Positions 2,866-20,566 of a DNA stretch of 20,567 nt are shown here, in pieces (position 1 is the stretch's first letter; each line of letters starts with the position of its first letter). The stretch is from a virus. The stretch is from the IMG/VR virus record IMGVR_UViG_3300008218_000073, positions 1 through 20,567 of that record, one strand, 5' to 3'. The notes below the pieces were generated by a model, which saw only the letters and a program-made list of their open reading frames with translations, made no database searches and was not told the origin of the DNA. A program made the translations under genes and the position numbers.

Positions 2866-3150
2866 ATGGCATATACACAAGAGCAAATTGATAATGGGGA
2901 AGCATGGGATATCTGGTGGAAAAACTTTGCAGTCTATAGACAAAAGAAAGAAAAACCACATAGACTGGCATCTGCAAGAATAGGAGAAACTTTAAAAACC
3001 ATTGCTCAGACAGAACCTTCCACAATAAAAAACCCAGAAGATATTGTATCAATAAAACAACACAACTCTACGTCAAACTCTGGTTCTGTCTGGGCTTCCA
3101 AACGACCTCGCAAACAAACAACAGAAGGCTTTATCAGGGGTCAGTCATGA
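2866..3150 (+). CDS. Hypothetical protein, 94 residues, coupled to the ATPase gene
   Basis: No family recognised. The N-terminus is aromatic-rich (AWDIWWKNFAVYR, about residues 13-25). The C-terminal half is basic, Ser/Thr/Asn-rich and probably disordered. AAGGAG at 2851-2856 is 9 nt before the ATG. The stop overlaps the next start in an ATGA arrangement (3147-3150), so translation of the ATPase is probably coupled to it. A loader or partner of the ATPase is conceivable from position alone. Confidence 0.7.
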   Translation: MAYTQEQIDNGEAWDIWWKNFAVYRQKKEKPHRLASARIGETLKTIAQTEPSTIKNPEDIVSIKQHNSTSNSGSVWASKRPRKQTTEGFIRGQS

Positions 3151-4388
3151 ATGAACCGATTGTTCAGACAACAGGCGAAATAACAACCTACCGATTTATT
3201 GAAGAAGATATTGTTGTTGAAGTCAGTATGATAAAAGAGCATACTGTCGGATTTCCAAGTGCCGAATTTATGATTATGGATACTTCAAGGGATATGATCA
3301 GGACATTAGCACCAGTCCGTAGAATAGGATTAGTAACAGAGAATATCAATGCATGGGCTGATGATCTGGCTGACAGGGTTATTCCACCACGATCAGACGG
3401 CTTCTGGATTACAGCATTAGGATTTATTCAACAGGAAACAATCCGATTGCATAGACAGGGAACTCCGTTTGTTAACATGGGAACCTTTACACCTGATGAT
3501 GAAAGCAACCGATATCTGTTAGAGCCGTTTATTTATGCAAACAGAATATCGTTACTCTATGGAAAAGGTGGAAGTCTGAAGTCATGGATCGCATTGTATC
3601 TTTCCGTCTTATGCGATCTGTATGCTCAAGATAATGAAGCAGGTTTTTTACCTACACCATGCAAGGTTCTTTGGTTATCCTATGAAGAAGATCAGCAGAC
3701 TGTTTATGAGCGAATACAGGCGATTCACAAGGGATTGAAGGCAGAAGTTGACAGCAATATAAGCTTTCGATTTATGAATAGACCATTAGTAGATGATGTA
3801 TCGGTATTAAAGCAATTCTGCGATTCAGAAGATATAGGATTAGTTATTGTTGATTCTGCTATCCCTGCCAGTGGTGGTGAAGCATCTGATAGTGGTGCAG
3901 CAGACCGATTCTTTAAGGGCTTGCAGCAACTTAAAGGTGGAAAGCTAGTATTAGCCCATGAAGCAAAGAACAGTACAGTAAATAATCCGTTTGGAAGTGT
4001 TGTATTTACCAATATGCCCAGATCTGTTTGGGAAGTGCAGTCTGAGGCAGACTATGATTCAAGCTATGCAGCAGTCAGCCTTGTCCACAGGAAGGTTAAT
4101 ACTGGCAGAAGAAGAAAGCCGATAGGATTGCGTTTTGATTTCTCGCCAAGCGATCCACCTGAATGGATTCGGGTGCGTAATTATGATCTCATTAGTGATC
4201 CTAATTTACGCCATACAATTTCCCCAAGAGAACGGATTTATCAGGCATTAAGTCGACATGGAACAGCAATGGATTTGGATTTAATTGCTGAAGAAACAGG
4301 ATTAAAAAACAAAGAAGCTGAAGAAGTTCTAAAAAATAAACCATTCCAATATGTCGGAAATGGAACATATGCACTGGAAACATTATGA
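3147..4388 (+). CDS. RecA/RepA-type AAA ATPase, probable replication or recombination helicase
   Basis: A 413-residue P-loop ATPase. Walker A is GKGGSLKS (139-146), preceded by the beta strand ISLLY. VLWLSYEED (174-182) carries the acidic pair expected of the catalytic glutamate in RecA-fold hexamers. Walker B is GLVIVDSA (231-238), with D236. LVLAHEAKN (268-275) is the sensor region and NPFGSVVFTNMPRSVW (280-295) a later core motif. Residues 1-130 are an unassigned N-terminal domain and 358-413 look like a winged helix. This layout resembles RepA-like helicases and AAA_25-type phage ATPases. It lacks a primase domain. The overlap with upstream and downstream genes (ATGA at both ends) places it at the heart of a DNA-metabolism operon. 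A Sak4-type recombinase is the main alternative. Confidence 0.85.
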   Translation: MNEPIVQTTGEITTYRFIEEDIVVEVSMIKEHTVGFPSAEFMIMDTSRDMIRTLAPVRRIGLVTENINAWADDLADRVIPPRSDGFWITALGFIQQETIRLHRQGTPFVNMGTFTPDDESNRYLLEPFIYANRISLLYGKGGSLKSWIALYLSVLCDLYAQDNEAGFLPTPCKVLWLSYEEDQQTVYERIQAIHKGLKAEVDSNISFRFMNRPLVDDVSVLKQFCDSEDIGLVIVDSAIPASGGEASDSGAADRFFKGLQQLKGGKLVLAHEAKNSTVNNPFGSVVFTNMPRSVWEVQSEADYDSSYAAVSLVHRKVNTGRRRKPIGLRFDFSPSDPPEWIRVRNYDLISDPNLRHTISPRERIYQALSRHGTAMDLDLIAEETGLKNKEAEEVLKNKPFQYVGNGTYALETL

Positions 4389-4684
4389 AGGATGCAGTAT
4401 TAAAAAGACTAAATTTTATCCAACGCAAAGCAATGATGCAAATAAACGTACGAAACAAAATACAAAAAGCGAACGAAAAGGAAGATATTATGGTTACAAA
4501 TGGGAAATCATTATTTATGACTGTATCCGAATTAGCTTTACTGTTCGGATGGAAACGGAACTTTATTCATAGAGGAATAATAGCAGGACGGATTCCTGCA
4601 AAAGCAGAAGGTCAAAGATATTTTATACCAAGGGTTTGGGCTGACCGATACTACTTAGATTCCGTTAAAGGTTTGGACCTTTAA
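4385..4684 (+). CDS. Excisionase/MerR-like helix-turn-helix protein
   Basis: Residues 44-92 match the short HTH_17 (excisionase-family) pattern: FMTVSELALLFGWKRNFIHR followed by the wing GRIPAKAEGQRYFIPRVWADRYY. It should bind DNA through the recognition helix around residues 56-65. The ATG at 4385 overlaps the ATPase stop (ATGA) but has a weak ribosome binding site. An internal ATG at 4490 (residue 36) has AAGGA at 4478-4482 with 7-nt spacing and would yield a 64-residue protein containing just the HTH domain. The first 35 residues are basic and without known domain. The first five codons are the same as in the next two genes. With no integrase in view, excision is unlikely; a regulator or replication accessory role fits better. 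Confidence 0.75.
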   Translation: MKDAVLKRLNFIQRKAMMQINVRNKIQKANEKEDIMVTNGKSLFMTVSELALLFGWKRNFIHRGIIAGRIPAKAEGQRYFIPRVWADRYYLDSVKGLDL

Positions 4685-4686
4685 GT

Positions 4687-5742
4687 ATGAAAGATGCAGT
4701 ATTTAATAATATGATTGTACAACTTTATCATGTTGATGCTCGGCAGCTTCCTATACAGGATGAAAGTATTGATTGTGTTGTAACCAGTCCACCTTATTGG
4801 GGTTTGAGAAATTACGACCTTGACAATGGCATTGGATTAGAACCAACCATTGAAGAATGGGTAACAAATATTGTGCTTGTGTTTCGTGAAGTCTGGCGTG
4901 TATTAAAGCCTACAGGCACAGTCTGGATGAATCTTGGTGACGGGTATGCTCAAGGTGGAAAATTAGGAAGCATGGATGCAGATTCAGAATGGCAAAAGAA
5001 TCAAGTGCGAGCCAAAGATAAAAACTATAATGTTAGGGGATGGGGAGCAGGCAAGCACAGAAATCAAGGGGCATCTGGAAGGGCATCAGGAACGGCTGCA
5101 TCTAAAGATAAAAACAACGTTCAAAGTAATCATGCTGAAACTGATAGTCCATTATGGCATGACAAAAAATATCCTAGATCTTTTCGGTCAACACGATATA
5201 CAAACCAACCCACATCTAATACTTATATACCAGAACTAAAAACCAAAGACCTTATCGGTATGCCTTGGCGAGCAGCATTTGCACTTCAGGCAGATGGTTG
5301 GTATCTGAGATCAGACATTATATGGAGTAAGTTAAACCCAATGCCTGAAAGTGTAACCGACCGACCAACAAAAGCACATGAGTATATCTTCCTGTTAACT
5401 AAACAAGCTAAGTATTACTATGATGCTGATGCGATAAGGGAATCTTCTTCTAATGCAGTAGTTTCAGATAATCGCAACAAACGCACAGTCTGGGAAATAC
5501 CAACGCAACCTTATCCAGACGCACATTTTGCTACTTATCCAGAGAAGTTAGTTGAGCCATGCATCTTGGCAGGATGCCCACCTGATGGCGTAGTGCTTGA
5601 TCCATTTGTTGGATCAGGTACTACCCTTGCAGTTGCACAACGTCTAGGCAGAAAAGGGGTAGGAACAGACTTAAATAAAGATTATCTTACGTTAGCAGAA
5701 CAACGCTTGCGATCTGTAACGTTGCCTATGGATTTATCATGA
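4687..5742 (+). CDS. Beta-class DNA methyltransferase (likely N4-cytosine)
   Basis: Motif IV, VTSPPYWGLRNY (32-43), lies near the N-terminus and motif I, LDPFVGSGTT (304-313), near the C-terminus. This order defines the beta class of exocyclic-amine methyltransferases. TSPPYW rather than DPPY favours N4-cytosine over N6-adenine. FATYPEKL (281-288) and GVGTDLN (324-330) complete the AdoMet-binding fold. Residues ~90-175 are a Gly/Ser/Lys-rich, probably disordered insert near where a target-recognition region is expected. The length (351) is typical. It likely protects phage DNA from host restriction or marks it; no cognate restriction enzyme is obvious, although a VRR-NUC gene overlaps its stop. 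No clear ribosome binding site precedes the ATG, only 2 nt after the previous stop, so re-initiation is probable. Confidence 0.9.
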   Translation: MKDAVFNNMIVQLYHVDARQLPIQDESIDCVVTSPPYWGLRNYDLDNGIGLEPTIEEWVTNIVLVFREVWRVLKPTGTVWMNLGDGYAQGGKLGSMDADSEWQKNQVRAKDKNYNVRGWGAGKHRNQGASGRASGTAASKDKNNVQSNHAETDSPLWHDKKYPRSFRSTRYTNQPTSNTYIPELKTKDLIGMPWRAAFALQADGWYLRSDIIWSKLNPMPESVTDRPTKAHEYIFLLTKQAKYYYDADAIRESSSNAVVSDNRNKRTVWEIPTQPYPDAHFATYPEKLVEPCILAGCPPDGVVLDPFVGSGTTLAVAQRLGRKGVGTDLNKDYLTLAEQRLRSVTLPMDLS

Positions 5743-6062
5743 AAGATGCAGTAGTAATAGATGGGAAATTTTACCCAAGAAGCGAAAAGGTCTGGCAGGA
5801 TCAGGTTCTTGCACTGGCTAAGATTTATGAATGGCAATACTACCATACATGGAGAAGCACTAAGTCAGTAGAAGGATTTCCCGATCTGGTTTTACTGCGT
5901 AAAAAGCGAATTATCTTTGCTGAATTAAAAGGACCAGATCACAAGAAACAGCGATTGAGTATTCATCAGGAAAATTGGATAACAAATTTAAAACATGCAA
6001 TAAAAGAGGTGTATGTCTGGCGTCCACAGGATTGGGATGAAGTAAAACGAGTATTAAATTAA
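5739..6062 (+). CDS. VRR-NUC domain nuclease
   Basis: A 107-residue PD-(D/E)XK-fold nuclease of the VRR-NUC type. The catalytic signature is GFPDLVLL (46-53, D49) followed by IFAELKGP (59-66, E62 and K64). HQENWITNL (76-84) provides the downstream Q/W element. An early glutamate (E16) may join the metal site. Stand-alone phage VRR-NUC proteins are linked to structure-specific or junction nuclease activity, so branch processing during recombination or packaging is a fair guess. The ATG overlaps the methyltransferase stop (ATGA) without its own ribosome binding site. The first five residues (MKDAV) match those of the two preceding genes. Confidence 0.88.
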   Translation: MKDAVVIDGKFYPRSEKVWQDQVLALAKIYEWQYYHTWRSTKSVEGFPDLVLLRKKRIIFAELKGPDHKKQRLSIHQENWITNLKHAIKEVYVWRPQDWDEVKRVLN

Positions 6063-6075
6063 CAAGGAGAGTATC

Positions 6076-6846
6076 ATGAATTTTGACGGCAGAAATGAAG
6101 TACGAGTACAGATGACTGTTACTGAAAAGTGGGCAGATCAAAAACGAATTAAAGCAAATCTTCAGAATCAGGATGGAAGATATCCACATAATATCAATGT
6201 TACAGATCATCCATTGATGGCAGTCTTAGAAATAGATAAAACGTATGAGGTAACAATTCAGCGAGGGAATGGAAAACTTGATGAAAACAAGAAGCCCATA
6301 AATACCAACGTTAGTTTCGGGTATTTCTGGAACTTAATAGAAATACATCAGGAGCAAGCCCCAATAGCAGAAAGCCATATCGTGCAAACAGCTATTGAAA
6401 ATGGAGCAAAAGTTATAAGCGAAACACCTGAACGATTTAAAGACTGGCGAGAAGTTGCTGAAGAACGCAAACAGCAATCCATTGAACGGCAGCAATTAAT
6501 TGTATTTGCTAATAATATATTAACTGCTCATGATGAAATTCAAATCAAGCTTGGAAATACTGATAATGTATCAACTACAGTGAATGATCGGTTAATAAGA
6601 ATTAAGGCTATCGCACGATCATTAGAGCCACATTTTGCTACAGGCTTTCAGGAACAGGTGTTAACAGAAGAAGTTGGTGGAATACCCAAGGAAGAACTTT
6701 TCCCCCCTCAAGACGAGCCACCTATACGCTCTGATGACACTCCTTTTGATCTTGAAGCATACACTTTAGAAAAGAAAAAAGAATATATGTCATCACAAGA
6801 TCAGCCATTACAGTATGAAGATTTAAATAATCCAGATTTGAGGTAA
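6076..6846 (+). CDS. Hypothetical protein, possible single-stranded DNA-binding protein
   Basis: A 256-residue protein with a beta-rich N-terminal ~95 residues: alternating strands such as VRVQMTVTEKW, KTYEVTIQRG and FGYFWNLIEI. A helical middle follows (about 110-200), then an acidic, proline-containing tail ending near the C-terminus in YEDLNNPDLR. An N-terminal OB-like barrel with an acidic tail would suit an SSB, and the operon holds an ATPase and two nucleases, but I see no decisive family motif. AAGGAG at 6064-6069 lies 6 nt before the ATG. Coding status is secure; the function is a hypothesis. Confidence 0.8.
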   Translation: MNFDGRNEVRVQMTVTEKWADQKRIKANLQNQDGRYPHNINVTDHPLMAVLEIDKTYEVTIQRGNGKLDENKKPINTNVSFGYFWNLIEIHQEQAPIAESHIVQTAIENGAKVISETPERFKDWREVAEERKQQSIERQQLIVFANNILTAHDEIQIKLGNTDNVSTTVNDRLIRIKAIARSLEPHFATGFQEQVLTEEVGGIPKEELFPPQDEPPIRSDDTPFDLEAYTLEKKKEYMSSQDQPLQYEDLNNPDLR

Positions 6847-6851
6847 AAAGA

Positions 6852-7115
6852 ATGAAATTTATCGTAGCGTATCAAATAATACAAGATTGCTATATTGAAA
6901 TAGAAGCTCCCAATCATATAGAAGCAGAGATGAAGTTTAAAAATTATCCAAAACTTGCAGAAGGACCAATAACTATCGTAGGGATATATCCTGCTTATAA
7001 TCGGGCTATGGGTGTTCTTGACCCTGCAAATAAGTCAGATAAAAAAGTAATAGATGCAAGGCTGAAATTTCAACGTGAACAATATAGTGCCAGTCAAAAG
7101 AAGGATATGTCCTGA
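6852..7115 (+). CDS. Hypothetical protein, 87 residues
   Basis: No family recognised. The first ~55 residues look like a small alpha/beta fold (KFIVAYQIIQDCYIEIEAPN, then a helix AEMKFKNYPKLAEG and strand ITIVGIYP). The C-terminus is basic and helical. GAGG at 6839-6842 precedes the ATG by 9 nt. It lies 5 nt after the previous gene and its TGA overlaps the ATG of the nuclease gene by one base, so it is part of the same operon. Confidence 0.78.
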   Translation: MKFIVAYQIIQDCYIEIEAPNHIEAEMKFKNYPKLAEGPITIVGIYPAYNRAMGVLDPANKSDKKVIDARLKFQREQYSASQKKDMS

Positions 7116-7957
7116 TGACTATAAAAGAACCAGTAAAAATTAATGATTTTATAGATCGATATGATTCATCAGAGGGTCGTTATTACACAGTTAAGAATGA
7201 CCCTCTGTTAGACCCTACAGAAAAACTATTTTCGGTAACTAATATTCTGGATAAGACAGCATCAAAACCCCAATTAGATGCCTATAAAAAGAAACAGATT
7301 CTGACTGCAGTCCTAGAAGAACTTGCTCCAGATATGCCGTATGAAGCAACGCTGAAACAAACATACAGCAGAGCAAACGGAGATCGACCAGATTATACCA
7401 AGTTTTCTTTTGACGGAAATCTTGGTGATGTTTTTACTCGCATACGAAACAATTCAGATAATGACGCAAAACAGAAAGGGGAGTGGGGAACTCTTGCTCA
7501 TGATATCGTTGCTGATTATTTAAAAGGTGATGATATTGAAAGTAAATTACAGGAGCAGGATCAGGAAGTGATAACAGCAGTTGAGAATTTTCAAGACTGG
7601 TTATCCAATGAAGGCAAGGACATTCTCTGGCAGCCACATCACATTGAAGAAACGATCTATCATCCTGTGGAAAAGTATGCAGGAACTGCTGATGCTATCG
7701 CTATTGAGAATGACGAGTATATTGTCATTGACTGGAAAACAGGCTTTGTAAGTGCAGAATCAAAGCTTCAGATCGCAGCACTTGCAGGAGCGTGGAACTA
7801 CCATAACCCACGAGCAAAAATTACTCGTGGTTATGTCATCCAGATTCCAAGAGAACAGGATCAAAAATACCAAATCTATCCTGTAGAAAATCTTGAAGAA
7901 GTCTATGAAGGATTTCTAAATGCAGTTAAATTGTTTTATATAAAACAGAATCTTTAG
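7115..7957 (+). CDS. RecB-family PD-(D/E)XK exonuclease
   Basis: A 280-residue nuclease with the ordered motifs of the RecB/Cas4-like group: GTLAHDIV (125-132, H129), E179 ahead of the core, AGTADAIA (189-196, D193), YIVIDWKTG (202-210, D206 and K208), and QIAALAGAWNY (219-229, Q219). These supply two-metal catalysis on DNA ends. Phage relatives act in recombination and genome processing, often beside an annealing or recombinase protein; the ATPase at 3147 or the OB-like protein at 6076 could be the partner. Residues 1-115 form a distinct N-terminal part with no motif seen. The gene is last in the operon and is followed by a strong terminator. Confidence 0.86.
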   Translation: MTIKEPVKINDFIDRYDSSEGRYYTVKNDPLLDPTEKLFSVTNILDKTASKPQLDAYKKKQILTAVLEELAPDMPYEATLKQTYSRANGDRPDYTKFSFDGNLGDVFTRIRNNSDNDAKQKGEWGTLAHDIVADYLKGDDIESKLQEQDQEVITAVENFQDWLSNEGKDILWQPHHIEETIYHPVEKYAGTADAIAIENDEYIVIDWKTGFVSAESKLQIAALAGAWNYHNPRAKITRGYVIQIPREQDQKYQIYPVENLEEVYEGFLNAVKLFYIKQNL

Positions 7958-15274: not shown

Positions 15275-16957
15275 CTATTCTTTCGCATCAAGCTTCTGAT
15301 TGAGTTCTTGTATTGCCTTTACAATTACAGGTATTAATTGCCGTTCCTGAATTGCAAGAATATTTTGTATATCACCAAAGCTTCCATCACCTTCATGGAC
15401 TGCTTCTGGAATAATTGCCTGTATATCCTGTGCCAGAAATCCGACTCGTGTTTCACTATCAGTTCCGTAGCCGTCAACAAAATTAAATTTCACTGGTCGC
15501 ATTTGTAGAAGATCGGCTAATCCATACGCTGAATCAATAATGTTTTCTTTAACACGTTGATCTGAGGATTCGTGATATGTTCCATGTGTGCCTGTAACAT
15601 CACCTGTACCACCATCAACTGTAAGACGTGTTACATAAGTAGCATTTAAATCAGAACCAGATGATCCTGCTGCAATACCCTGAACAAGAAAATCACCACT
15701 TGTAGCAGAACCCTTGCCTTGCCCTCCACGCAGAACGATATTTCCCCCTGCGATATTATTTGTGGTTGTTGGAGTAGCCTGTCCACCACTTAGAACAAGA
15801 ACATTTGCTGCTTCACCATGTGATGCCCGATATCCTGCTTTAATTATTGCTTCATATCCTGCTGCTGCACTCCATCCAGACGAACCACCTCCACGAAATA
15901 GGTGAATCATTTGATAGCCATCTGATTCAATCAACAGCATTTCGGATGAATCATCAGCAAGAGATGTACTGTCGACTGGTGTTTTTAATGCTCCTTCATT
16001 CGGGGTTAAAGGGCTGTCAGCCGTTGATCCGTCTGTTTTTCTCATATCAAACTTCACAACTGGCTGTGTTGGTGTTGCATCACCAAGACGAAATTCAAAG
16101 TCGGCAGCGTTTCTATCATTATCGCTGAAGAAAAGTAAATTAGGTCCACCATATGCGTCATGCTCTTTTTTAATAGCGAAATAAGTATCTGCTTCCTGAA
16201 CACCAGTAAACGGATGATTGATATCCGAACTCTTTAATGCAAATATCGTATCGTCAGCAGCACCTTGGTTAATCGTTAATCCAGTTGTAACATCACCATT
16301 TGCCGTATCGTTGATATAGGTTGTGCCTGATATTTGGACAATGCCGTTTATGTCCATGAGCGTTGCAGTTATATCAATTTCGCTACCACCTGCTACTACA
16401 AGAGTTGATCCATTTCCATAGATGTATTCACCACCTACATCATTGAAATAAATCTTTTGGCTACCTGATACGAGAACGTCTCCCCCATGAATAACGACTC
16501 TGCCATTTGCTCCATCAAGCTTTAATAATCCTTTTGAATTGCCACCATCAGAAACGGCAAATAGTATATCTCCGTCATTGGTTATATTGCTAATGATAAG
16601 CGAATTAGCTGCTACCCCAAGATGATCAGATGTTCCTTCAATCACATTGGATAATTCTGCATCTGCACTTAATGATGTTGATCGGTTAAGAATAACCGAA
16701 TCACCATCAGTTCCAATCTTCAGCAATGCATCATCAACGATTATTGGGGCAGTACTCCAAACAGGAGCAGTTCCTGAACTGGTAAGAATAGTATTTGCAG
16801 CACCGATTCCTAATCGTGAAAGAACTGTAGTGCTTGTTGCATATGCTATATCCCCTGCTGCCTGACTGGCGAATATATGCCCTGTTCCGTCCGTTGCTTC
16901 AAACTCGGCTTGAGTCATTGAAGTTCCTACTGTTTTATGCTGAAATTCATTAGCCAT
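15275..16957 (-). CDS. Tail fibre/spike with C-terminal S74 intramolecular chaperone
   Basis: A 560-residue fibre protein. Residues 1-455 are Gly/Ser/Thr/Asn-rich with repeating strand-like segments (such as GGDVLVSGSQKIYFNDVGGE), fitting a trimeric beta-rich shaft. Residues ~464-560 match the Peptidase_S74 chaperone: SSDQRVKENI with the Ser/Lys pair S465 and K470, then LLQMRPVKFNFVD, RVGFLAQDIQAIIPEAV and the helical end QLIPVIVKAIQELNQKL. This domain promotes trimer folding and then cuts itself off. The fibre is probably a host receptor-binding part. The ATG overlaps the tape measure stop by 8 nt, with GAGGGA just upstream. Confidence 0.88.
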   Translation of the reverse strand: MANEFQHKTVGTSMTQAEFEATDGTGHIFASQAAGDIAYATSTTVLSRLGIGAANTILTSSGTAPVWSTAPIIVDDALLKIGTDGDSVILNRSTSLSADAELSNVIEGTSDHLGVAANSLIISNITNDGDILFAVSDGGNSKGLLKLDGANGRVVIHGGDVLVSGSQKIYFNDVGGEYIYGNGSTLVVAGGSEIDITATLMDINGIVQISGTTYINDTANGDVTTGLTINQGAADDTIFALKSSDINHPFTGVQEADTYFAIKKEHDAYGGPNLLFFSDNDRNAADFEFRLGDATPTQPVVKFDMRKTDGSTADSPLTPNEGALKTPVDSTSLADDSSEMLLIESDGYQMIHLFRGGGSSGWSAAAGYEAIIKAGYRASHGEAANVLVLSGGQATPTTTNNIAGGNIVLRGGQGKGSATSGDFLVQGIAAGSSGSDLNATYVTRLTVDGGTGDVTGTHGTYHESSDQRVKENIIDSAYGLADLLQMRPVKFNFVDGYGTDSETRVGFLAQDIQAIIPEAVHEGDGSFGDIQNILAIQERQLIPVIVKAIQELNQKLDAKE

Positions 16958-18632
16958 TTATTCCCTCACTCATTTTTTTATCAACTGCTCCATCTAAATC
17001 TTCTTGTTTTACTACTTGCTGCACTGTTCCATAGTTAATTAGCGTTACGTTATTTCTAGCCAACCACTCCATAGTTGCAGTACCACTGCTAAAATCAGCA
17101 TCACCTGTAGATGAAGCACTACCAATTCTTCTTTTTGAAATCCCTAATGCTCGCTCCATGTCTTTCATAACTATTCCCAAACCTGATTCCTCTAACATAG
17201 CAGCTTTTGCTTCTCTTGAAAGAGGAATACCTTTTACGCCTTGCCCTTTATGATGGGCTTCACCACCAAGTACATCAAGCATTTCTTCAAATGCCCCTGC
17301 AACGTTATTAATAGATTTTTCCACTTCTAAAGCTTCACCTTGCAGCACATCAGCCATTTCTTCAAATGACATTGCTACGCCCTCAAAATGTTCTTTGGAT
17401 ACACTTCCAAAATTTTTAAAAGCATTACCAAGGTCTGAAAATTTATCTTTTACAGCAGTAACCATACCATCAGCAGTAAACTCTACTTTTTCCATCGGCT
17501 CTATAAAATCAACACCTAATACTTCACCTAATTTTGGAATTTTTCCAACAAGCCAATTAACGCCACTACTGATTGCATTAACCAGTGTTACAAATGAATT
17601 TACGCCTGCTTCTATAAATCCAATAATTTCATTAAATACAAACGAGACAATATCTCTTACTATTTCAAATCGTCTGAAAGCTACAACAGCTAGAGCAACT
17701 GCTCCTGCAACAGCAAGAAATGGCAACCCTACACCTGCTACAACAACAACTAACCCTTTTATCAGTAAAATAAGCAGAGGCAGACCAACCATTAATGCAC
17801 CGATTGGAATCATTACAGCAGCTATTATTGCTGTGAGTTTAAGAATACCTCGTGTCAAATCAGGATTTGCTTTTATCCAAACAAATAGAGGTTCAGTTGC
17901 TTCCCGAAATGAATCTGCTAATCGTGTCAACTCTGGGATTAATACATTTCCAATTGTTGTCGTTAATCCAGTTTGAACTTTAGCAAGATTTGCTAACGCA
18001 TCACGATATTCTTCAGATGCACGGATGCCTTCTTGTTCTGTAAAAGAACCAAATCTTTTTAGCATTTCTATGGAATCAGCAACAGCACCCGATACGCCTT
18101 CTTCAAATAGTGGAATTAATGCCTGACCCGATTTGCCGAATAGTTGTGTTGCAACAGAACTTTTATCCATATCCTCTGGAAGTTTTGCAATAGCATCTCC
18201 CAATTTGGCAAATGCTTTATCCATTGATAAGCCTTCCAAATCAGCCATACTAACGCCCAATTGATCGAACAAATCTTTATAGGTAGCTGTTCCGCCTTTA
18301 GCTTCACTAATAGCCACAGCCATCTTTCGTGTTGATGTTTCGACAGCAGCAAGATTTACGCCACCTAATTCAGCAGCATGAGCAAGTCCTTGAAGCACGT
18401 CTGTACTCATTCCAGTTGCTTTATTTAATTTGCCGATACGATCTTGGAATATTGATGTTGTATTTGCAGCTTTTAAGAATCCAAATGTTACAGCAGTTCC
18501 CACAGCACCAATTGCAAAGCCCATTCTACGGACTGAATCTGCTGCTTTTTTCACCCGATCCTGAAACGAACCAATAGCAGCTTTTGCTTTTGTCGCATCA
18601 GCTTTAATATTTACTACGACTTCATTAGCCAT
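16950..18632 (-). CDS. Tail tape measure protein, 560 residues
   Basis: I start it at the ATG at 18632, which has GAGGAG just upstream; a longer frame would need a TTG at 18659. The N-terminal ~240 residues are long amphipathic helices (DATKAKAAIGSFQDRVKKAA; GLAHAAELGGVNLAAVETST). Residues ~262-319 form a hydrophobic block with two or more membrane-type segments, typical of tape measure proteins. The rest is helical to the end. Tape measure proteins set tail length and are ejected with the DNA. At about 0.15 nm per residue, 560 residues would suggest a tail of roughly 85 nm. It follows the tail assembly chaperone pair, the standard order. Confidence 0.88.
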   Translation of the reverse strand: MANEVVVNIKADATKAKAAIGSFQDRVKKAADSVRRMGFAIGAVGTAVTFGFLKAANTTSIFQDRIGKLNKATGMSTDVLQGLAHAAELGGVNLAAVETSTRKMAVAISEAKGGTATYKDLFDQLGVSMADLEGLSMDKAFAKLGDAIAKLPEDMDKSSVATQLFGKSGQALIPLFEEGVSGAVADSIEMLKRFGSFTEQEGIRASEEYRDALANLAKVQTGLTTTIGNVLIPELTRLADSFREATEPLFVWIKANPDLTRGILKLTAIIAAVMIPIGALMVGLPLLILLIKGLVVVVAGVGLPFLAVAGAVALAVVAFRRFEIVRDIVSFVFNEIIGFIEAGVNSFVTLVNAISSGVNWLVGKIPKLGEVLGVDFIEPMEKVEFTADGMVTAVKDKFSDLGNAFKNFGSVSKEHFEGVAMSFEEMADVLQGEALEVEKSINNVAGAFEEMLDVLGGEAHHKGQGVKGIPLSREAKAAMLEESGLGIVMKDMERALGISKRRIGSASSTGDADFSSGTATMEWLARNNVTLINYGTVQQVVKQEDLDGAVDKKMSEGING

Positions 18633-18846
18633 ATTTCTCCTCGTCTGGCTGTGCTTCAATAAGTATTCGGTTCATGTGTAGAAGTAAAGAAGCATCCTCA
18701 TTCATTAACTGACTCGGAACAACTCCGTATTTCTGACATAAATTATCAATTAACCTATAGATGATTAACACCTTCGGCATCCCTTCAATATCTCCTAATT
18801 CATTGGTATGTCCACCAGTATGTCTGAACTGTTGGACTGCTCGGAT
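18625..18846 (-). CDS. Second tail assembly chaperone part, made by -1 frameshift
   Basis: A frame in the -1 register relative to the chaperone gene runs from just after the slippery site to TAA at 18627-18625 (73 codons). It reads IRAVQQFRHT... then ELGDIEGMPKVLIIYRL and YGVVPSQLMNEDASLLLHMN, like the T part of siphophage G/GT chaperones. It has no good start codon: an ATG at codon 23 follows AGGAG by 11 nt and is a weak alternative. Fused to residues 1-107 of the upstream gene it would yield a 180-residue product. It ends 8 nt inside the tape measure gene. In characterised phages the long form recruits the tape measure protein. Confidence 0.82.
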   Translation of the reverse strand: MRAVQQFRHTGGHTNELGDIEGMPKVLIIYRLIDNLCQKYGVVPSQLMNEDASLLLHMNRILIEAQPDEEKYG

Positions 18847-19166
18847 AAAGGGTCGTCAGGCTTTGCCACAACCTCCGTCCATTTCTCAATCAAAAGAGTT
18901 GATAATTCCAACGGCAACTGCAAAACACCTTCAGCATCAGCAGGAATATCATTGCCGTCTTCCTGAAGATTCCAATTTAATAAAATTTCATTTCCGAATT
19001 TTTCCAATATATCTTTTGACTGGTTTGCTTCCACCATTGTCTGTATTTCGAGGAACAGCCCCAGAGGAACATCAAGGCGAGTGCGTATTTCCAAGCCTTC
19101 ATAATCGCCTTCAAATACCAATAAGGCTGTTCTTCTTTGTAATTGAAACTTTCCGTTACTGCTCAT
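18795..19166 (-). CDS. Tail assembly chaperone, short form
   Basis: A 123-residue protein between the tail tube and tape measure genes, the position of the G-type tail assembly chaperone. I start it at the ATG at 19166, with GGAGGGG a few bases upstream; a TTG at 19178 would add four residues. The N-terminal half is beta-rich (KFQLQRRTALLVFEGDYEGL; RTRLDVPLGLFLEIQ), and the rest helical and acidic. Codons 106-107 (CCT TTA) lie in a canonical slippery site, so some ribosomes shift to make the 180-residue form. The rest read on to TAG at 18795. Confidence 0.82.
   Translation of the reverse strand: MSSNGKFQLQRRTALLVFEGDYEGLEIRTRLDVPLGLFLEIQTMVEANQSKDILEKFGNEILLNWNLQEDGNDIPADAEGVLQLPLELSTLLIEKWTEVVAKPDDPLSEQSNSSDILVDIPMN
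18810..18837 (-). promoter_or_regulatory. Likely frameshift-stimulating stem-loop
   Basis: Eight nt after the slippery heptamer, GTCCAACAG (18837-18829) pairs with CTGGTGGAC (18818-18810): eight base pairs with one A-G mismatch around a 10-nt loop. Spacing and size are as expected for a -1 frameshift stimulator. Confidence 0.6.
18846..18852 (-). promoter_or_regulatory. Programmed -1 frameshift slippery heptamer
   Basis: On the minus strand the sequence is C CCT TTA in the frame of the chaperone gene, an exact X XXY YYZ heptamer. It lies immediately downstream of the last stop (TGA, two codons earlier) in the -1 frame and 51 nt before the 0-frame stop. Both tRNAs can re-pair as CCC and TTT. 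Confidence 0.8.
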
Positions 19167-19179
19167 TTTCCCCTCCAAA

Positions 19180-19584
19180 CTATGCCCATGTCGGAACTGT
19201 TGTGCTGTTTAAACTGCCTGATGCTGTGTAATTCGCTTCACCTGTTGCACTTCTACTAAGTGCATAATCAGTAAAGATTGTTTCATTCGGTAGCGATTGT
19301 CCTGAGATTGTTATAGTTACTGTGCGAGTTACTGAAGTAGATGAGACTGTGCTGAAGACTGCATGAGATAGGTTACTCGCATCATTAAATACTCCGTTCA
19401 CAGTGATAGTAAAATCGGCAAGCAATAAGAGTCTTTCAACTGCACTACTATTTATTCCTGTAACATCCTGTACTCCTCGTGGAATACCGAAATCGAGTGA
19501 GGTAACATCATTGGAAATAGTTCTTGCTGATCCACCATGATCATCAACAGCTAGAGCCATTCCCATTCCTGATTCTTTTGCCAT
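19180..19584 (-). CDS. Major tail tube protein
   Basis: A 134-residue protein whose sequence strongly resembles siphophage tail tube subunits: MAKESGMGMALAVDDHGGSA at the start, then SLDFGIPRGVQDVTGINSSA, ERLLLLADFTITVNGVFNDA, and the beta-rich end TRTVTITISGQSLPNETIF ... TVPTWA. Such subunits stack as hexameric rings around the tape measure. The gene lies just before the chaperone pair, the standard place for the tail tube. AGGAGGG precedes the ATG. The size is on the small side but fits this type. Confidence 0.88.
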   Translation of the reverse strand: MAKESGMGMALAVDDHGGSARTISNDVTSLDFGIPRGVQDVTGINSSAVERLLLLADFTITVNGVFNDASNLSHAVFSTVSSTSVTRTVTITISGQSLPNETIFTDYALSRSATGEANYTASGSLNSTTVPTWA

Positions 19585-19602: not shown

Positions 19603-20013
19603 TTACTTGTTTTGACGTTTAAATTGATACATATCCTCGTTAAAATTATCTGTCCATCTTTCGGGTTCTGCTATGCCTTGTCCATTTTTATATAACACAG
19701 GCACTTTATCGGTAGCGATAACATGAGTTCCCGATTTGAAGCAAGGTTGACCTGCTTCAAAATGAAACTTAATTAGATTCTCATCCAATTGTTTTTCGGT
19801 AAAATATCGTTTTGTTTTCTTACATTCAGTACGCAGAATATTCACATATAATTCACCAGTAGTTGGTTCAACTTGCGTAGGAGATAACAACACATCCCAT
19901 CCGTTAAAGTATTGAGGGCAATCTGCATCTATACAATTCGACTTCCGAAAATGATCGGCTAATCGTTTTGCTCTATATCGGTTTTGTGTACTACGCATAT
20001 GCGACTGAATCAT
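19603..20013 (-). CDS. Small conserved-looking protein before the tail tube gene, 136 residues
   Basis: No function known to me. NCIDADCPQYFNGWDVLLSP (about 26-45) with C27, C32 and later C64 and C91, GELYVNILRTECKKTKRYFTE, FHFEAGQPCF and the end EPERWTDNFNEDMYQFKRQNK match a small protein I have met near phage tail tube genes. The chosen ATG follows AGGA by about 7 nt and overlaps the previous gene's stop by 23 nt. Head-tail completion or tail assembly are plausible roles. Confidence 0.75.
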   Translation of the reverse strand: MIQSHMRSTQNRYRAKRLADHFRKSNCIDADCPQYFNGWDVLLSPTQVEPTTGELYVNILRTECKKTKRYFTEKQLDENLIKFHFEAGQPCFKSGTHVIATDKVPVLYKNGQGIAEPERWTDNFNEDMYQFKRQNK

Positions 20014-20566
20014 TTGCCGTTCCTATTCTAATTGCTACTGCAACGACTGCATTTGATAATGTGCCTGTTGCCGTTACTCTAAGATATCTGCGAACTGCAC
20101 CTGCTACTGTTACTCGTTCCGTTGTCGGTTCTGATCCATCCGATACAGCAGTAAACGAAACCAGATCAGACCAAGAACTATCATTGGCACTGTCTTCAAT
20201 CTTTATCGTTGGAGCCCCTGAGTTAATATCGAATAGCTGTAGGATTACAGCAGCACCATTTGAGGTTGCTGCTCCTTGGTCATAGCTTGATTTACTACCT
20301 GCTGATGAGAATGTTTCTTTGGCTGCTGTGAGCATTACGCCCCATTCCATAGGAACATCTGCATCGCCCAGACAAGAAATGCTGCCCATAAGGCTTCCAT
20401 CTGCACCACCACTCCAATCGTAGTTCGTCTGCTTTGCTGTAAATAATGCTGCTGATGCACCCCTATCAGAACTAACAGCATAGATCGCATGTGTCGTTGC
20501 ACCTGCCTGTAAGGCTCGTAACGCAAGATGCGCCTGTCCAGAAGCATCATTAAAGAAACAACTGAA
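19991..20566 (-). CDS. Structural protein, tail-module type (5' truncated by window edge)
   Basis: The frame is open to the right edge, so the true start is outside; 191 residues are visible. FFNDASGQAHLALRALQAG and VSSDRGASAALFTAKQTNYD at the visible start lead to DADVPMEWGVMLTAAKETF. The C-terminal part is a beta-sandwich-like region (TIKIEDSANDSSWSDLVSFT; TERVTVAGAVRRYLRVTATG). This matches structural proteins found beside siphophage tail tube genes. Since the visible part lacks a start, a shorter frame beginning at the internal ATG at 20389 should not be annotated as the gene. Confidence 0.8.
   Translation of the reverse strand, partial: FSCFFNDASGQAHLALRALQAGATTHAIYAVSSDRGASAALFTAKQTNYDWSGGADGSLMGSISCLGDADVPMEWGVMLTAAKETFSSAGSKSSYDQGAATSNGAAVILQLFDINSGAPTIKIEDSANDSSWSDLVSFTAVSDGSEPTTERVTVAGAVRRYLRVTATGTLSNAVVAVAIRIGTANDSVAYA

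Follow-up and report, generated by a model that had tools for sequence, protein, structure and literature searches.

The minus strand of the window, by which we mean the whole stretch of 20,567 nucleotides analysed here, very probably encodes a pair of tail assembly chaperones of the lambda G/GT type, produced by −1 ribosomal frameshifting at C CCU UUA. While this kind of gene pair is well known, the family to which the present pair belongs and the shift site it uses are new; the family is not recognised by the protein-family libraries searched and is unannotated.

According to the proposed mechanism, most ribosomes would read G through to its own stop codon and synthesize a chaperone of 123 aa, whereas a minority would slip back by one base at C CCU UUA. 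The proline tRNA would then re-pair from CCU to CCC and the leucine tRNA from UUA to UUU, and translation of 73 further codons would yield a GT protein of 180 aa. In analogy to what has been proposed for G and GT in lambda (PMC5009743), the G domain may bind the tape measure protein and the T domain may recruit the tail tube protein, with the ratio of G to GT serving tail assembly. In the window, a hairpin downstream of the slip site probably increases the rate of the shift.

Organization of the locus

The features of the tail module on which this reading is based are the following:

18795–19166, minus strand: putative G, short-product tail assembly chaperone of 123 aa (ORF with ATG at 19166; homologs)
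18846–18852, minus strand: predicted −1 shift site C CCT TTA (zero-frame heptamer, kept at the family junction)
18838–18845, minus strand: 8-nt spacer (from the sequence)
18810–18837, minus strand: hairpin, candidate stimulator (folding energy, shuffles)
18625–18846, minus strand: T in the −1 frame, 73 codons and stop, C-terminal part of the predicted 180-aa GT (open frame, homologs)
18778–18780, minus strand: T-frame ATG with upstream AGGAG, possible internal start (not conserved)
16950–18632, minus strand: tape measure protein, the ATG overlapping the end of T (phrog_8462, E 2.4e-33)
19180–19584, minus strand: conserved tail-tube-like gene directly upstream of G (51% identical in Streptomyces phage Dagobah; present at 43 bacterial genome loci)
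19991–20566, minus strand: second tail protein, incomplete at the window end (phrog_9522 major tail, E 2.8e-12, residues from 20389 on)

The original prediction had placed an in-frame C CCT TTA on the minus strand, followed by a spacer of 8 nt, and both were found as described: the heptamer occupies 18852–18846 in the zero frame of G (context GAC CCT TTA), ahead of the G stop codon at 18797–18795. The last −1 stop (18858–18856) lies one codon ahead of CCC, and the −1 frame is open from 18855. After the slip it comprises 73 codons (18846–18628) and ends with a stop at 18627–18625, overlapping the start of the tape measure gene (18632), so that the frame check also bore out the 73-codon frame and the fusion of 107 + 73 = 180 aa. 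It had further been pointed out that the open overlap begins at the slip site, which is correct here but incidental, the overlaps of relatives measuring tens to several hundred bases or more. The statement that the −1 frame has no good start codon does not hold strictly for the window, which does contain an ATG at 18780–18778 with an AGGAG upstream, although no start is conserved in the family.

The assignment of the gene at 19180–19584 to the tail tube is weak, the match to the major tail family phrog_10528 reaching E 0.032. With the gene at 19991–20566, the module contains two tail-tube-like genes on the minus strand. In four host genomes, the profile of the gene at 19180–19584 matches one more ORF each, in three cases on the same contig, a pattern suggestive of paralogy among tube proteins. 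Elsewhere in the window, a tail fibre-like protein with a C-terminal Peptidase_S74 (endosialidase-type) chaperone domain is encoded at 15275–16957 (minus strand), and a replication/modification block at 3147–7957 (plus strand) comprises an AAA_25 ATPase, an N6_N4 DNA methylase and a VRR_NUC nuclease, together with a possible HTH_17 protein and a possible PD-(D/E)XK nuclease.

Identity of the two proteins

Profile searches with G gave no credible chaperone match in Pfam, NCBIfam or PHROG, and T gave no credible match in Pfam. The name chaperone is therefore derived from the order of the genes, the arrangement of the frames and the fold; as these proteins diverge strongly, a missing profile match does not exclude membership in a chaperone family. 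In the AlphaFold model of G (pLDDT 85.7), the folded part extends to about residue 101, ending shortly ahead of the slip at residue 107. A Foldseek search of this model against BFVD retrieved uncharacterised phage proteins as well as an annotated viral tail assembly chaperone (E 8.6e-3, probability 1.00, TM 0.55/0.59), and a weak match was obtained with the HK97 chaperone 2ob9 (Z 5.1 over 92 residues, rmsd 4.7, 15% identity). T is predicted to be mostly helical (pLDDT 83.8). Against the PDB, Foldseek returned no significant match for the G or the T model, and sequence profiles found nothing credible.

Homologous loci in phages and bacterial genomes

XXXYYYZ heptamers in any frame occur 100 and 95 times on the two strands of the window. 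At about one hundred per strand, such a heptamer is weak evidence when taken from a single sequence, and relatives were therefore sought.

In Streptomyces phage Dagobah, tblastn of the fused protein located a counterpart with an E value of 6, directly ahead of a gene of 653 aa that occupies the place of the tape measure gene. This locus was retained because gene order and pairwise homology checked out: G is homologous to its Dagobah counterpart (pairwise E 7e-5), T is 33% identical, and the −1 frame reads LIVGLCQQFSTLPSALYEEDAELL in Dagobah versus LIDNLCQKYGVVPSQLMNEDASLL in the window, the Dagobah junction being G GGA AAA. The fused query from the relative L036 matched Dagobah in two pieces (E 1e-12). 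Two other weak matches, Methanobrevibacter vir075 and Vibrio CHOED (E 2 and 9), were dropped owing to unsuitable contexts. In the Dagobah annotation, G and T (HUN42_00022 and HUN42_00023) are separate hypothetical proteins with no frameshift annotated, and the annotated T (L007:3136–3264) starts inside the −1 frame and is hence truncated. The expectation that gene callers mishandle the second half of the fusion is thus borne out by the split and truncated Dagobah genes.

Single-sequence searches of IMG/VR with G, T and the tape measure protein yielded only near-identical copies (about 99.7% identical). Using an alignment of two fusions, from the window and Dagobah, as the query, we obtained 69 IMG/VR loci, 65 of which had both halves detected. 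T lies in the −1 frame in all 65, and 64 carry a zero-frame heptamer at the junction (C CCT TTA in 57, C CCT TTG in five and G GGA AAA in two loci). The sole exception, L046, has G GGG GAA at this position; GGGGGAA is known as the “fivetwo” chaperone slip motif and has been described for some thousand phage frameshifts (PMC10885494). Many of the IMG/VR loci are near-duplicates, and the number of distinct junctions, including those of the window and Dagobah, is 50.

The fused two-sequence alignment found no match in the bacterial genome contigs (genome_contigs), and an alignment of the tail-tube-like gene led to 43 loci in bacterial genomes. They belong mostly to Streptomyces and other Actinomycetota, and also include a Dehalococcoidia, a Chloroflexi and an Acidimicrobiia MAG; a sample of 301 genomes from the phylum of the Dehalococcoidia genome contributed one further match, which was weak. 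Downstream of the tube-like gene, G and T profile matches are present in all 43 loci (T being weak in L104, E 0.27), and T stands in the −1 relation with a junction heptamer in every one of them (C CCT TTG in 35, C CCT TTA in five, G GGA AAA in two and T TTA AAA in one). Tape measure profiles matched eight of nine tested ORFs downstream of these pairs. The order of tail-tube-like gene, G, T and tape measure gene is common to the IMG relatives, Dagobah and the genome loci. Heptamer and −1 frame, whose lack in related phages would have counted against the original prediction, are hence kept there, and together with the gene order they support its reading as a frameshifted G/GT-type chaperone pair.

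Shift site and downstream hairpin

That C CCT TTA is less usual than the G GGA AAG of lambda had been noted from the start, and it is indeed an uncommon slip sequence, yet one measured to be prone to frameshifting in E. coli. All 64 heptamers have been measured in this organism, and C_CC.U_UU.A and C_CC.U_UU.G are among 18 that combine a negative genome z-score with more than 0.10% frameshifting without stimulators (PMC4066793), which means that slippage at the uncommon motif has experimental support, in E. coli at least. Taken alone, the tetramers U_UUA and U_UUG are weak there. In the literature we found no use of frameshifting at CCCUUUA, CCCTTTA or CCCTTTG by a tail chaperone, most subscription papers lying outside the search.

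In the genome loci (L079–L121), the last base of the heptamer differs among host groups. C CCT TTG is found in all Streptomyces and Kitasatospora loci, whereas C CCT TTA occurs among the genome loci only in Dehalococcoidia, Chloroflexi, Acidimicrobiia, Amycolatopsis and Catellatospora, and UUA predominates in marine viral and Chloroflexota loci. The tRNA that reads UUA in Streptomyces is rare and under developmental regulation. It is a tentative and rather doubtful suggestion that C CCU UUR represents a chaperone shift signal that is old and specific to this family, its last base tracking the leucine tRNA supply of the host; the UUA/UUG pattern could instead be explained by overall G+C content.

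The predicted hairpin with one mismatch is present at 18837–18810, but its stem consists of 9 bp (5 + 4 bp around one A.G mismatch, with an 8-nt loop) rather than the 8 bp described originally. It has a folding energy of −12.1 kcal/mol (z −2.5 versus shuffles). Stimulators have been placed at spacer distances of 5–9 nt (PMC5009743), and empirical bacterial rules demand a start 4–10 nt past the motif, a G-C first pair and at least 7.6 kcal/mol (PMC4066793); the window hairpin satisfies these latter rules, and its 8-nt spacer falls within both ranges. In the IMG alignment, the window stem is paired in 65.5% of cells, which exceeds column shuffles; some slid versions of the stem score about equally on covariation, and RNAalifold did not recover the hairpin as a consensus structure. 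In the alignment of the genome loci, mostly from Actinomycetota, a different stem of 7 bp is located 7 nt past the heptamer and is paired in 77.6% of cells; its covariation is not clearly above chance, and RNAalifold predicts nothing. A hairpin structure shared across the family is therefore not supported by the alignments, while a role of hairpins as stimulators in individual genomes is plausible. Among frameshifted chaperones of the G/GT type, stimulatory structures past the slip site are frequent without being universal.

Alternative explanations

Judged on the window alone, with its many heptamers, G and T could be two independent genes with a heptamer that arose by chance and no frameshift at all. 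Across the relatives, a perfect zero-frame heptamer is found at the junction of 107 of 108 loci (64/65 from IMG/VR and 43/43 from genomes) whereas the pooled background is close to one per 10,000 codon positions: in-frame XXXYYYZ sequences with Y = A/T occur in G outside the junction at only 1 in 4750 codon positions of the IMG set and 0 in 5564 of the genome set. Nor can codon bias account for CCT-TTG fixed at one site, because both codons are rare in the G genes of the genome loci (CCT 22 of 419 proline codons, TTG 25 of 535 leucine codons; average G+C of the loci 69%). The −1 frame itself has an identity of 0.44 downstream of the slip versus 0.23 upstream, and a −1 stop occurs within 15 codons upstream in 18 of 92 sequences versus none of 92 within 18 codons downstream. 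As the loci share descent, their counts are non-independent events; the conservation is informative because the Streptomyces, Chloroflexota and marine loci lie far apart. The probability of independent genes with a chance heptamer is accordingly close to negligible.

Alternatively, T might be synthesized as a separate protein by internal initiation or reinitiation coupled to termination of G, for example at the ATG at 18780, which is preceded at a distance of about 11 nt by an AGGAG, lies near the G stop and would give a separate T piece of 51 aa. This start is not conserved among relatives; a protein beginning there would lack roughly the first 22 residues of T, which are conserved, and the conservation of the heptamer would have no explanation. 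Moreover, seven relatives (L019, L020, L024, L042, L044, L073 and Dagobah) have no ATG, GTG or TTG in the T frame before the conserved core. That T is translated exclusively from a start of its own had been named as one of the findings that would speak against the prediction, and for these three codons it is thus ruled out in the seven relatives. They are strong evidence that internal initiation is not the general mechanism, without bearing on rarer start codons, and we regard this explanation as very improbable. A change of frame by transcriptional instead of ribosomal slippage appears even less probable. Other genes are known to undergo slippage at homopolymer runs (PMC3711429), and nothing specific points to it here: the runs are merely CCC and TTT, and what is conserved is a tandem-slip heptamer in fixed phase, in whose place some relatives have G GGA AAA or T TTA AAA. 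Ribosomal frameshifting at the junction heptamer is the reading retained.

Significance and comparison with known systems

An unannotated family of putatively frameshifted tail chaperones thus spans viral metagenome contigs, Streptomyces prophage-like loci and Chloroflexota, and gene callers split or truncate its second half, as exemplified by Dagobah. In this family, C CCU UUA/UUG would be in natural and widely conserved use; the only other place in which we encountered these heptamers is a reporter screen in E. coli. For the annotation of tails, a tail-tube-like gene followed by a small gene that carries C CCT TTR close to the end may serve as a compact signature.

The window can be compared with loci that contain true homologs of both halves. 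Dagobah shares their order and the −1 phase but has G GGA AAA as shift site where the window has C CCT TTA, and the genome loci likewise have homologs of both halves in the same order and phase, mostly with C CCT TTG. The HK97 tail assembly chaperone (2ob9) shows a middling likeness in fold to G that is too weak to prove homology. The lambda gpG/gpGT pair resembles the window in its small G followed by T in the −1 frame, in the zero-frame heptamer near the end of G, and in a tail-tube gene upstream and a tape measure gene downstream; it differs in that lambda uses G GGA AAG instead of C CCU UUA, and the proteins of the window match no described sequence family.
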